From positions 1,798,001-1,862,000 of the forward strand of contig NZ_CP020562.1 in the NCBI RefSeq assembly GCF_002082565.1: 64,000 nucleotides of DNA. Reading direction: 5' to 3'. The position numbers and the translations under genes are program-made. The DNA comes from Halomonas sp. GT. GTDB taxonomy: Bacteria; Pseudomonadota; Gammaproteobacteria; Pseudomonadales; Halomonadaceae. The notes under the pieces were generated by a model. That model made no database searches. It was not told the origin of the DNA and worked only from the letters and a program-made list of their open reading frames with translations. Of this stretch, positions 9,389 through 63,052 are shown piece by piece; within the stretch, counting starts at the first letter, position 1, and each line of letters starts with the position of its first letter.

Positions 9389-10669
9389 ATGGCCGACGGC
9401 AAAGGCAAGGACGAAGGTGGCAAGCTTTTATACTGCTCGTTTTGTGGTAAAAATCAAAACGAAGTACGTAAGCTAATTGCAGGCCCGTCCGTATATATCT
9501 GCGATGAGTGTGTCGACTTATGTAATGACATCATTCGCGAAGAAGTTCTCGAAGCCGATGCCGAGAGCGATGAAGAGCGTTTACCTACGCCTCGCGAAAT
9601 ACGTCATACGTTAGACGACTATGTCATCGGACAAGATCGCGCCAAAATGGTGCTATCTGTAGCGGTTTATAACCACTACAAGCGTCTTAAGACGGAAGTG
9701 CGCGAAGGTGATGTAGAACTAGGTAAATCAAATATTCTGCTCATTGGTCCTACTGGTAGTGGTAAAACACTGTTGGCGGAAACCATGGCGCGGTTATTGA
9801 ATGTACCTTTTACCATTGCCGATGCCACTACACTGACAGAAGCGGGCTATGTGGGTGAAGATGTTGAGAACATCATCCAAAAGCTTCTGCAGAAGTGTGA
9901 TTACGACGTCGAAAAGGCTGAGCGAGGCATTGTCTATATCGATGAAATCGATAAGATTTCGCGCAAGTCTGACAACCCATCCATCACGCGTGATGTGTCG
10001 GGCGAGGGCGTCCAGCAGGCGCTGCTCAAGTTGATTGAAGGCACAACAGCATCCGTGCCGCCGCAGGGTGGTCGTAAACATCCTCAGCAAGAGTTTGTTC
10101 AGGTCAACACGGCCAACATTCTGTTTATTGTAGGTGGCGCTTTTGCGGGGCTTGATAAAGTTATTCGTGATCGTGCTGAAAAAGGTGGTATTGGTTTCAA
10201 TGCCAGCGTGAAGAGCAAAGAGTCTTCACGTGGTGTAGGTGAGTTATTGGCAGACGTAGAGCCAGACGATTTAGTGAAATTTGGTTTGATTCCTGAGTTT
10301 GTTGGACGTCTGCCCGTGATTGCGACGCTCACTGAGCTAAATGAAGATGCGTTGGTACAGATATTAACTGAGCCTAAAAACTCGCTGGTTAAGCAGTACG
10401 CCAAGCTCTTTGAAATGGAAGATGTGACACTTGAGTTTAGAGACGAAGCGCTGCGTGCTGTCGCGACTAAGGCAATGGAGCGTAAAACCGGTGCGCGAGG
10501 TTTACGATCTATCCTTGAGTCTGTGCTGCTAGACACCATGTACGAGATACCTTCGCTTGAAGGTGTTAGTAAGGTGGTGATTGATAGTTCAGTGATTGCT
10601 GGCGAAAGTGAGCCACTACTGATCTATTCGCAGCAGGAAGACGCTCGTGTTGATGGCACCGACGGTTAG
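9389..10669 (+). CDS. clpX: ClpX, AAA+ unfoldase of the ClpXP protease
   Basis: A 426-residue hexameric ATPase. The N-terminal zinc-binding domain has cysteines 16, 19, 38 and 41. Walker A is [15 protein letters not shown], Walker [11 protein letters not shown]. Sensor and arginine-finger regions ([25 protein letters not shown]) follow, as does the ClpP-contacting IGF-like loop ([13 protein letters not shown]). Start and length match the family. The gene is between clpP and lon and ends shortly before a perfect palindrome. Confidence 0.98.
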
Positions 10670-60701: not shown

Positions 60702-60792
60702 GGAGGGATGGCAGAGCGGTTGAATGCACCGGTCTTGAAAACCGGCATAGGTTAATAGCCTATCCAGGGTTCGAATCCCTGTCCCTCCGCCA
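60702..60792 (+). tRNA. tRNA-Ser(TGA)
   Basis: A 91-nt tRNA. Acceptor GGAGGGA (60702-60708) pairs with TCCCTCC (60782-60788), then discriminator G and encoded CCA. The anticodon stem CCGGT/ACCGG encloses CTTGAAA, anticodon TGA (60736-60738). A long variable arm (TAGGTTAATAGCCTA) and the T-arm AGGGTTCGAATCCCT identify a class II serine tRNA. It stands alone, and it marks the boundary between core genome and accessory DNA. Confidence 0.96.
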
Positions 60793-60805
60793 AGTATTAC
60801 GAATA

Positions 60806-60830
60806 AGCCGCTGATTTCAGCGGCTTTTTT
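60806..60830 (+). terminator. Intrinsic terminator of tRNA-Ser
   Basis: AGCCGCTG, loop ATTT, CAGCGGCT, followed by T (60825-60830): a compact Rho-independent terminator 14 nt after the tRNA. Confidence 0.85.
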
Positions 60831-60841
60831 GTGTCTGTAAT

Positions 60842-61150
60842 TTAGTCAGCCCATACCTCAGCCCATACTTTGGTTTTGGCTTTCACTGAATAGAAACAAA
60901 CCTCTCTGGACGCTCTCTCTTCGTAAGTCGTTTTTTGATACTCACCTCCATGGCTCAACTCCCTCAAAAGCTTCACTGATGCACGCTCGTGAGGGCGAGG
61001 TGACAGCCTCTCTTCTTTCAGATAATGTCCTCTGAAGAGTTTTGAATGGTAGCCACTGGCTGGTAACGACCCAAAGCGGCCATGCCGACAAAGACAGCGG
61101 GCGCGGTTTTTTGAGTATATGGGGTATTCTCGATGAATGGTGTTATGTGC
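60842..61150 (-). other. Stop-free minus-strand frame without ATG in a 374-bp gap, possible gene remnant
   Basis: Between the tRNA and the next gene no ordinary gene is present. One minus-strand frame is open for 102 codons, from a stop at 61151-61153 to a stop at 60842-60844, and ends in KAKTKVWAEVWAD. It contains no ATG, only GTG and TTG codons, and no ribosome-binding site. The end carries a spaced direct repeat, TCAGCCCATAC at 60846-60856 and 60858-60868. I do not recognise the product. It could be the 3' remnant of an element inserted at the tRNA or mere chance. Confidence 0.25.
61142..61148 (+). other. GTTATGT, possible cassette boundary
   Basis: A GTTATGT 18 bp before the ATG of the secreted-protein gene resembles the crossover core of integron sites. 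I could not find a convincing partner arm upstream, so the assignment rests only on position and on the attC-like structure further along. Confidence 0.2.
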
Positions 61151-61166: not shown

Positions 61167-61580
61167 ATGATCATAATTAAGACTAAAGTTACAGCTATTG
61201 TATTCCTTGTATTAATGGCATTTTCTATCCATGCTCAAGCCGCCGACGAGGACCACATCCGATCAAACCTTGCAGCCGATTATGCACAGTGTTGGAGTTA
61301 CTACGCGATTACTTCTGAAGGCGTACGTCGCGGCGGGCAGAACGACTTGGCCGAGCAATTCACTGCTCTTGCGAATGAAGCATTCCTAAAGGGGGTTACC
61401 CTTAGTAATGCTGAGGTCACAAAGGCTAGGGCGGAGATGGCACGCATGCAGCAGTTTAATGAAATCCGTAGTGATTTTTCAAATCTTGAAATCCTATTTG
61501 TAAAGTATAATCAACTCTGTAATGGATTAATGGCTGACCCAATAAGCCGTGAAGAGTATGGGAGGCGTAGCGGGCAGTAA
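61167..61580 (+). CDS. Small secreted protein of unknown function
   Basis: A 137-residue protein with a clear signal peptide (about 1-25, hydrophobic AIVFLVLMAFSIHAQA before ADEDH). The mature part is mostly helical and has two cysteines (about 42 and 118) that could form a disulfide. I do not recognise the family. It has a GGCGGAAG ribosome-binding site and different, AT-richer codon use than the core genes. It lies alone before a gap of 357 bp and may be the first of several integron cassettes. Confidence 0.65.
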   Translation: MIIIKTKVTAIVFLVLMAFSIHAQAADEDHIRSNLAADYAQCWSYYAITSEGVRRGGQNDLAEQFTALANEAFLKGVTLSNAEVTKARAEMARMQQFNEIRSDFSNLEILFVKYNQLCNGLMADPISREEYGRRSGQ

Positions 61581-61937
61581 TGTTTGTTAGAAAAAGTGGC
61601 GAATAACTCTAGATCAAACAGGCGCGCTATCGACCCTGAGCGGACTTCGCTGAGACCGGATATTCATAAGTACCTTTGGCTCACAATGCGCGTTTTTCTG
61701 GTTGGGTTTGAAATACAAATGTTTGGTTTTCTGGAGCGGCTTTTTCAAAGTTTTTATGAAACAAGGTGTTAGGGGAAAGCTATTGATGATTATGTGCAAT
61801 ATCCAAAGGATGGTGAAAATGTTAACGCGCATGCGGCATTTATTTCTCTAAATTTCAATGCATTATAACTATATGGTCAGGATGGTGGTGGCCAGAAAAG
61901 CACGCATGCGCACTAATAAACTGTTACGTGAAGCCAT
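61581..61937. other. Gene-free stretch between the secreted protein and the HEPN-like gene
   Basis: No gene is supportable here; a 62-codon frame at 61584-61772 lacks a ribosome-binding site and any recognisable sequence. AT-rich. Two copies of an inverted GCGCATGCG/CGCATGCGC element stand near 61828 and 61902. A GTTACGT at 61923 lies 15 bp before the next ATG and could be a cassette boundary, but the arms upstream (TTATAAC at 61863) pair only partly. Confidence 0.4.
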
Positions 61938-62612
61938 ATGGAAAGATTTGAAACATATACCCGCTTAGGTGGAGATGATAGGTTTAGATGGATTGCCGAG
62001 AGTAATCTAGACACGTTTGAGGAAATCGACCCAAAAGTGAAAAAGCTTTGGGCTGATATTTCATCATTGCTATCAAGCTGTGATGACCCCGAAAATCCTC
62101 CAGCCGAATACTACACGCTCCATATAGAGCTAGATCCTCTGGAGGAGGCTAGAGACCAGTCATGTATTATTGCTGTTGTGTTCACGGCGATGTACTTTGA
62201 GGCCTTTATTTATGACTATGCTGCATCTTGTTTAGGAGATAAGTATTCGAAAGATCACTTGGACAAATTAGACTTCGTATCGAAGTGGCTAGTTATCCCT
62301 AAACTGATTACTGGAAAAGAGATATCTAAGTCTGGCCAAGCTTATGAATCATTGAAACGCCTCCACAAAGATCGAAACTCTCTCGTGCATCTGAAATCAA
62401 GAGAAATGAATTTCGATAATGAAGAATTGGCAAGTTATATGAAGGCGCGTGAACAAGATATTCAAGAATCAACGAAAAACTGTAGGAAAGCGTTAAGGTA
62501 TGTAATCCAAGAGCTTTTGGCAATTGACCCAGATCATCCAAAGGTTATCTTGGCGAGTCAATCACGTAACAAGTCAAAGCACTCAGACGCAGCTAGCTGC
62601 GCCGGTGTTTGA
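61938..62612 (+). CDS. HEPN-like protein with an R-x4-H motif, probable integron cassette gene
   Basis: A 224-residue, mostly helical protein that I do not recognise as a whole. Residues 146-151 read RNSLVH inside a helix (LKRLHKDRNSLVHLKSREM), matching the R-x4-6-H catalytic motif of HEPN ribonucleases, and a polar helix precedes it (VVFTAMYFEAFIYDYAASCLG), as is common in HEPN folds. HEPN proteins serve as toxins and in anti-phage defence. No Shine-Dalgarno is obvious. The last 16 residues are encoded within a 59-bp attC-like structure, typical of cassette genes. Function is inferred from the motif only. Confidence 0.6.
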   Translation: MERFETYTRLGGDDRFRWIAESNLDTFEEIDPKVKKLWADISSLLSSCDDPENPPAEYYTLHIELDPLEEARDQSCIIAVVFTAMYFEAFIYDYAASCLGDKYSKDHLDKLDFVSKWLVIPKLITGKEISKSGQAYESLKRLHKDRNSLVHLKSREMNFDNEELASYMKAREQDIQESTKNCRKALRYVIQELLAIDPDHPKVILASQSRNKSKHSDAASCAGV

Positions 62613-62622
62613 AGCGTTATGA
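62564..62622 (+). other. Probable integron attC site (59-base element)
   Basis: R'' ACGTAAC (62564-62570) and R' GTTATGA (62616-62622) share the TAAC/GTTA pair. Inside, 4-nt spacers (AAGT, AAGC) are followed by L'' CAAAGCAC (62575-62582) and L' GTGTTTG (62605-62611), which pair perfectly except for one unpaired G in L''. A central stem CGCAGC/GCTGCG (62588-62593, 62596-62601) with loop TA closes it. Length 59 bp and the single extrahelical base in L'' are the defining features of attC. It overlaps the end of the HEPN-like gene. Confidence 0.65.
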
Positions 62623-62644
62623 ATTACGAGAAAGGTGAGCCATC

Positions 62645-63052
62645 GTGCCAATTGAGTTGCCAGTAGAGTTACGGTTCCCGATGGGAGGAACAACTCCGTT
62701 AACCGACAGAGCGGTTCAAGACTTTATTAGCCTTGCGCGAAAGGCCTCATCTAGCACCATTGGTCGCCAACAGATTATTGAAAAATTTAAGGAATTTTTG
62801 GCTGTTGCGAGTGGTGATCAGTACGCCAAAAGCTCTAGTTTGTCGTGGGCTGAGTCAGACCTAGAATATCACGCTGACAGAGCTGCATCCGACGCACCTG
62901 GTTTTATCGCCGCCTTCTGCGATGCATGTGAGGCACTTGAAAACTGGGGAGTAGCTGTTCCCGGGCACCAATACGTTAACAATATCCTTGAGAAACATTC
63001 GGTTCCGTTTAGAGTCATCGATAATCAGCTGATGGCCACTGATGAGCACTGA
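62645..63052 (+). CDS. Short protein, probably truncated at its 3' end by the IS3-family insertion
   Basis: A 135-residue soluble protein starting with GTG, 6-10 nt after AAAGGTGAG. Segments such as FIAAFCDACEALENWGVAVPGHQYVNNILEKHSVPFRVIDNQL look like the early part of a longer protein; I have a weak recollection of abortive-infection (AbiJ-like) proteins with similar N-terminal domains, which cannot be checked here. The stop TGA (63050-63052) coincides with what looks like the terminal TGA of the IS, so the natural C-terminus and any attC of this presumed cassette are probably lost or displaced beyond the element. Confidence 0.55.
   Translation: MPIELPVELRFPMGGTTPLTDRAVQDFISLARKASSSTIGRQQIIEKFKEFLAVASGDQYAKSSSLSWAESDLEYHADRAASDAPGFIAAFCDACEALENWGVAVPGHQYVNNILEKHSVPFRVIDNQLMATDEH

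Follow-up and report, generated by a model that had tools for sequence, protein, structure and literature searches.

An attI site, one complete gene cassette and its attC downstream of a tRNA-Ser gene in Halomonas sp. GT: a probable integron remnant without its integrase

The window, that is, the whole stretch of 64,000 nt of the Halomonas sp. GT chromosome that was analysed, contains a tRNA-Ser gene (anticodon TGA; 60702..60792, plus strand; ARAGORN, Rfam RF00005) as the upstream neighbour of the features described here. The tRNA gene is followed on the plus strand by an ORF of 137 aa (61167..61580), which has no family match and was not assigned as a cassette, and then by a probable attI core of the Shewanella type (61903..61925), recognized by an exact pattern match, with the GTT crossover at 61923-61925. 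Next comes a complete gene cassette of 693 bp (61924..62616, plus strand; limits set by sequence), which reaches from the GTT of the attI to the R' box of an attC site (62564..62622, 59 nt, plus strand) and carries the gene for a HEPN-like protein. Downstream lie what is presumably the 5' part of a second cassette (62617..63049, plus strand), delimited by the extra length of its relatives and by the junction with an insertion sequence, and this insertion sequence itself, an IS3-family element (63050..64307, plus strand), which runs beyond the window after 64000.

The sequence-only reading had proposed an attC-like site of 59 nt at 62564..62622, with perfect pairing of the R and L boxes and an architecture rare by chance. 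The site is indeed present there, and it looks like a genuine attC, as judged from its sequence. It consists of the R'' box ACGTAAC (62564-62570), followed by the spacer AAG, the L'' box TCAAA-G-CAC (62574-62582), with an extrahelical G in the middle, the stem CGCAGCTAGCTGCG (62588-62601), the L' box GTGTTTGA (62605-62612), followed by the spacer AGC, and the R' box GTTATGA (62616-62622). Perfect pairing was found for the L boxes, which form eight Watson-Crick pairs, all matched, with the one extrahelical G in L'', but not for the R boxes: the AAC/GTT core is present and six of the seven positions pair, five of them as Watson-Crick pairs and one as a G.T wobble, and the outer position is an A/A mismatch. 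The consensus of attC R' boxes is GTTRRRY, from which the window site deviates at two positions. Inside the site, there are an extra unpaired T (62583) and an A/C mismatch; in addition, 12 of 14 related sites have CGG, in place of which the window site and a site in another locus (L030) have CAG.

A scanner for the R/L architecture, the thresholds of which were chosen with the window site in view, gave a single match in the window, namely the attC, and likewise one match in 60 dinucleotide-shuffled windows, in agreement with the proposed rarity. The bottom strand folds with −10.9 kcal/mol, which was equalled by 6 of 200 shuffles, and the top strand with −9.2 kcal/mol, which was equalled by 35 of 200; by itself, the folding energy is thus only modestly unusual and a weak argument for an attC. 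At the Rfam gathering thresholds, the tRNA was the sole match in the window and no attC was reported. A covariance model (R1) was built from 20 regions, 13 beside intI matches and seven around relatives of the window attC, in which attC-like hairpins were listed by a structural script. Twelve short attC-like hairpins of other species were picked by eye and aligned; 11 of these seeds come from loci next to a gene for an integron integrase, and the remaining one, taken from the contig L077, which had been included because it holds a relative of the window site, is a different hairpin. The window site and its DNA relatives from the genus were excluded from the seeds. R1 assigned 46.5 bits and an E-value of 5.5e-10, bearing in mind that covariance-model E-values are rough, to the window attC, the second of 11 matches in 204 kb, including a locus (L017) that repeats the window place. 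The site thus passed the proposed covariance-model check, with a model built here and not that of IntegronFinder. When R1 was run on the whole genome, scoring covered 150 of 1826 candidates, and for this reason the window attC is missing from the matches listed; the fetched regions were accordingly scanned with R1 one by one. Across 37 matches from 19 fetched loci, 87.9% of the cells were paired, more than in any of 500 shuffles, and the cells changed on both sides and the covariation score were likewise above all 500, whereas for pairs changed on both sides the value was attained in 27 of the 500 shuffles, and for further pair types in 5; because the alignment was fitted to the model, this test is biased toward structure. 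It is extremely improbable that the HEPN-like gene ends in a chance hairpin or a transcription terminator that merely resembles an attC: the folding energy is near that of shuffled sequence and the R boxes are imperfect, but the R1 E-value, the DNA matches to the site (E 0.001 or better) in 16 of the 82 genus genomes, the own genome included, the attI at the opposite end of the gene and the scanner result for the shuffled windows, on which a chance hairpin was rejected, argue against it.

Sister sites, which were expected elsewhere if the interpretation was correct, were also found. Altogether, the own genome has 14 attC matches (E 0.01 or better) in six fetched regions: three each in L018 and L019, four in L189, one in L191, two in L192, and one in the window. 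Four of these regions (L018, L019, L189 and L192) thus contain at least two matches each, and no match at this threshold was found in the regions L020-L022 and L190. A sister of the window attC with 91% identity is located at 1556726, and the region around it (L019) has two further attC matches at E 0.01 or better. Near-identical copies of 55-62 bp are present in several genus genomes, and a plasmid search with the window attC gave only one match, of 62 bp with 87% identity, in Pseudoalteromonas sp. THAF3. Such copies in several genomes and on a Pseudoalteromonas replicon would also fit a REP- or MITE-like element of the genus, a repeat that is dispersed and non-coding and is not a cassette end. 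However, the copies are found near further, unrelated attC sites (the 37 model matches in 19 loci), related HEPN genes have a common tail that is encoded by the attC, and the ends of the copies are the limits of the attC, so that we regard a repeat of this kind as very improbable.

In the THAF3 copy (L009, 8880-9935), the R'' box is altered and the site adjoins unannotated DNA, which we read as putative remains of an IS110-type transposase gene. IS1111 elements that target attC sites are known.

The attI partner of the attC lies within the window and had been missed by the sequence-only reading. Its core pattern had no match in 100-200 shuffles, and it agrees at 22 of its last 24 positions with the Shewanella-type attI sequence printed in the available excerpt of PMC9892861. 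The same core is found in five genus genomes, where it is oriented divergently to an adjacent intI or intI remnant. The distance to intI is about 310 bp in G050, G056 and G080, 406 bp in G043, where the first 35 residues of intI are missing, and 682 bp in G001, where the first 125 are missing. Among these five intI genes, only that of G050 looks intact; those of G043 and G056 contain stops, and the matches in G001 and G080 are partial. With the candidate attI core at 61903-61925, the HEPN-like gene is flanked by the GTT of an attI on one side and by the R' box of an attC on the other.

The HEPN-like gene (61938..62612, plus strand) encodes 224 aa with a conserved RN-x3-H motif, and its match to Pfam HEPN_Cthe2314 is below threshold. 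The motif is kept in the family alignment (25 of 54 relatives aligned), the predicted structural model is all-helical, and one relative is named RiboL-PSP-HEPN in UniRef. A HEPN ribonuclease-like role is therefore predicted as likely from sequence and model. A PDB fold search with the model gave nothing significant (best E 0.21), with a HEPN toxin in 11th place at E 0.66. With PADLOC, none of the three tested window genes, nor P0056, a relative of the second gene, was assigned to a family. A comparison of the relative P0007 with viral contigs gave no match, and the HEPN-like protein, compared with plasmids, matched 11 records, all with less than 60% identity. The last 15 residues or so of the protein are encoded by attC DNA. 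This tail is kept in two relatives (P0001 and P0007), and residues 213-224 have low confidence in the predicted model. Among 369 genomes of the class, only one besides the own genome encodes the protein: in a distant gammaproteobacterium (G167) it is 86% identical and has two internal stops. The DNA match to G167 is confined to 61919-62573 (85.5% identity, blastn), close to the limits of the cassette; the two sequences diverge directly upstream of the GTT and just after R'' and its spacer. R1 gave no attC match at the G167 locus, so the attC seems to have been lost there, and because of the internal stops and the lack of a detectable attC only the 5' limit of the G167 cassette is exact.

Taken together, these results indicate, with a probability of roughly 0.93, that the hairpin is the attC of a cassette inserted at the nearby attI, and that the unit, composed of the attI (61903-61925), the HEPN-like cassette (61924-62616) and the 5' part of the second gene, cut by the insertion sequence, is an integron remnant without its integrase. 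The integron-cassette interpretation already put forward from the sequence alone is supported by the R1 match, the sister attC sites, the attI and the limits of the foreign relative. Integron integrases cut the folded bottom strand of an attC within the GTT and join it to attI, near the promoter region on the attI side. An IntI that recognizes attI sites of the Shewanella type would have inserted the HEPN-like cassette in this way, cutting the folded bottom strand of its attC within the GTT and joining it to the attI, and would thereby have placed the HEPN-like gene next to the attI-side promoter region. The intI gene would have been lost later, and the unit would be immobile today unless IntI is supplied in trans.

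The end of the unit has been rearranged. The ORF of the second cassette (62645-63052, plus strand) is truncated, and its TGA stop codon is supplied by the end of the insertion sequence. Two relatives (P0056 and P0057) continue for 61 and 44 residues further; a third (P0055) stops at the same place as the window ORF, but it comes from a contig of 775 bp. The gene was not found in any other of the 369 class genomes. The IS3-family element encodes HTH_Tnp_1 and rve domains and has terminal repeats of 27 bases, of which 21 are equal; its match to the NCBIfam IS3 model is below the cut-off. No target duplication was found at its ends, which are flanked by GAGCAC and GTGAAT. The backbone shared with G038 starts directly after the element, and the whole segment 61083..64309 is absent from the syntenic place in G038, where there are 148 bp instead (blastn against L229). 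The element cuts the gene and abuts backbone DNA, and therefore any attC of the second gene is gone; a deletion adjacent to the insertion sequence probably removed it together with the end of the gene. The sequence-only reading had expected a multi-gene array that continues past the insertion sequence. This expectation was not borne out, because only a single complete cassette is left, and the 20-kb locus (L017) has no other attC match at E 10.

An integrase gene was searched for in the own genome, which has no TIGR02249 match above the cut-off and in which no intact intI gene was found. Eight matches are below the cut-off, as are found in all 14 control genomes; in our reading, they include XerC/D-like recombinases. 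An intI remnant that holds stops and is 73% identical to IntI over 71 residues is located at 949946-950152, 0.9 Mb from the window. Directly at the locus, tblastn with 13 IntI queries gave no match in L017, so there is no intI beside the window attI. Of the two integron components that the genome could have lacked altogether, the attI is thus present at 61903-61925, and intI only as a remnant at about 950 kb. Since the searches of this genome yielded no working integrase gene, the unit in the window would be able to move only with an integrase from elsewhere, and in the absence of an intact intI present activity cannot be inferred. Within the genus, 19 of 82 genomes, the own genome included in the 82, have an integron integrase above the NCBIfam cut-off. 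In L018, the intI remnant with stops (9944-10252, corresponding to about 949943-950251) is followed by cassettes with attC matches.

Clusters of attC sites, or single attC sites, without an integron integrase have been described as CALIN and SALIN, respectively (available parts of PMC9229058 and PMC9892861). Like these, the window cassette has an attC that is remote from any intI, and the gammaproteobacterial chromosome in which it lies has several places of this kind; unlike these, the array is headed by a recognizable attI and only one attC is left. A CALIN comprises at least two clustered attC sites without intI, and the window has one, as in a SALIN, with the attI in addition to the SALIN description. 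The attI-headed CALIN of the Shewanella prophage M16-3, as described in the accessible text of PMC9892861, has the same type of attI (22 of 24 positions) and likewise no intI of its own in the array. The host element of M16-3 carries, in addition, a complete integron whose IntI is intact (same excerpt), whereas the window array is chromosomal, beside a tRNA-Ser gene, and cut by an insertion sequence, and no intact intI was found. With a sedentary chromosomal integron, the window shares the canonical order and orientation of attI, cassette and attC, but it has no intI beside the attI and only one complete cassette. For Shewanella, scattered CALINs and cassettes with a single attC are in print (excerpt of PMC9229058), as is one attI-headed CALIN (excerpt of PMC9892861); cassettes closed by a truncated attI, as treated in the available part of PMC12901181, are a different matter. 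In the open-access literature, the phrase 'orphan attI' was not found in any paper, a single paper came up for integrons in Halomonas, and PMC9892861, as far as its available text goes, was the only paper on attI or CALIN remnants without intI in Shewanella.

The attI platforms without intI are the interesting part of these results. The exact 18-base core was found in 72 contig loci among 257 billion bases, mostly in Shewanella, but also in Halomonas/Vreelandella, Oceanobacter, Vibrio and a few MAGs. A rough calculation that assumes uniform composition predicts about seven matches by chance, yet TGTT is in the right place in 71 of the 72. In 39 of these loci there is an attC at E 0.01 or better, and in 33 there is none; all 71 attC matches are downstream of the attI and co-directional. 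For 58 attI loci with at least 1.3 kb of upstream sequence, tblastn with 18 IntI queries revealed five full and four partial intI genes and none in the remaining 49, 24 of which have attC matches and 25 of which do not. A LexA-like box was present upstream of the attI in 38 of 91 rows, which include orthologues and count the window twice, compared with 1 of 111 background windows. In 35 of the 38, the box is located at −244 to −289, at a nearly fixed distance in Shewanella, where it occurs in copies with an intact intI as well as in those without intI. Among the Halomonas copies, only three with intI (L167, L172 and L173) have the box, and the window lacks it over 900 bp.

These platforms are most simply explained as former integrons that have decayed. 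Alternatively, the window would not be a fossil at all, but one of many satellite docking places at which an attI platform is in use, with IntI supplied in trans by a co-resident or passing element. In its favour are the intactness of the attI core, both in the window and in 72 contig loci, the attC matches in 24 of the 49 loci without intI, the nearly fixed LexA-like box of the Shewanella copies and the 19 genus genomes with IntI above the cut-off. Against it stand the lack of such a box over 900 bp of the window, the presence of no more than an intI remnant in this genome, and the 25 loci without intI that have no attC match; we consider continued use of the window attI rather unlikely. The more general proposal that the dispersed attI platforms without intI of Halomonas/Vreelandella, Shewanella, Oceanobacter and some Vibrio form a class of satellite docking stations, at which a single integrase acting in trans could build cassette arrays in many parts of the chromosome, is more speculative still, and we put it forward as a doubtful one. 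A lone attC is usually put down as a stray cassette, but here and in 24 of the 49 loci without intI the attC matches lie behind a recognizable attI, so that the first cassette is placed where an integron would express it, and a ready target would await an incoming integrase. If such platforms can be used in trans, integron-capable genomes would outnumber the carriers of intI, and the origin of scattered cassettes would become testable.

Several Shewanella loci (L133, L139, L103 and others) share a left module of about 400 bp that lies about 100-400 bp upstream of the attI and has the LexA-like box inside. It is conserved, repeated within single genomes, and occupies the place expected for intI. 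A comparison of shared 13-mers revealed no right-hand end that recurs among the attI units. On a megaplasmid of Pseudoalteromonas shioyasakiensis (L195, 3211-5154), an attI-type module is found between genes annotated as Tn7-like transposition genes and nuclease-like cargo genes.

The link to the tRNA-Ser gene, made in the sequence-only reading, turned out to be informative. Among 80 attI loci with at least 1.2 kb of upstream sequence, 11 have a tRNA gene within 1.2 kb of the attI, and in a further locus (L236) it is at 1.67 kb. All 12 are co-directional tRNA-Ser genes and none is in a Shewanella locus; several of these rows are one place fetched twice (100% identical upstream), leaving eight places in seven genomes. 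Thus, attI sites of the genus that lack intI recur downstream of tRNA-Ser genes. In G007, the syntenic tRNA-Ser(TGA) place holds an attI with three mismatches and three strong attC matches, and none of 13 IntI queries matched there; in G064, it holds an attC match, whereas no attC was found in eight other syntenic or related regions (L229-L233, L235, L237 and L238).

In the own genome, an attI-like core with two mismatches is located at 16566 of L189 (minus strand; about 2316566), with attC matches downstream on the same strand and no IntI tblastn match in 20 kb. A degenerate attI-like sequence, without an attC match, is present at 7766 of L190 (about 1187766), 323 bp after a tRNA-Ser(GGA) gene. 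In G038, the end of the tRNA-Ser gene and the bases that follow (window 60779-60848; L230, 10152-10221) are repeated about 36 kb away, a pattern as for an island inserted at the tRNA-Ser gene.
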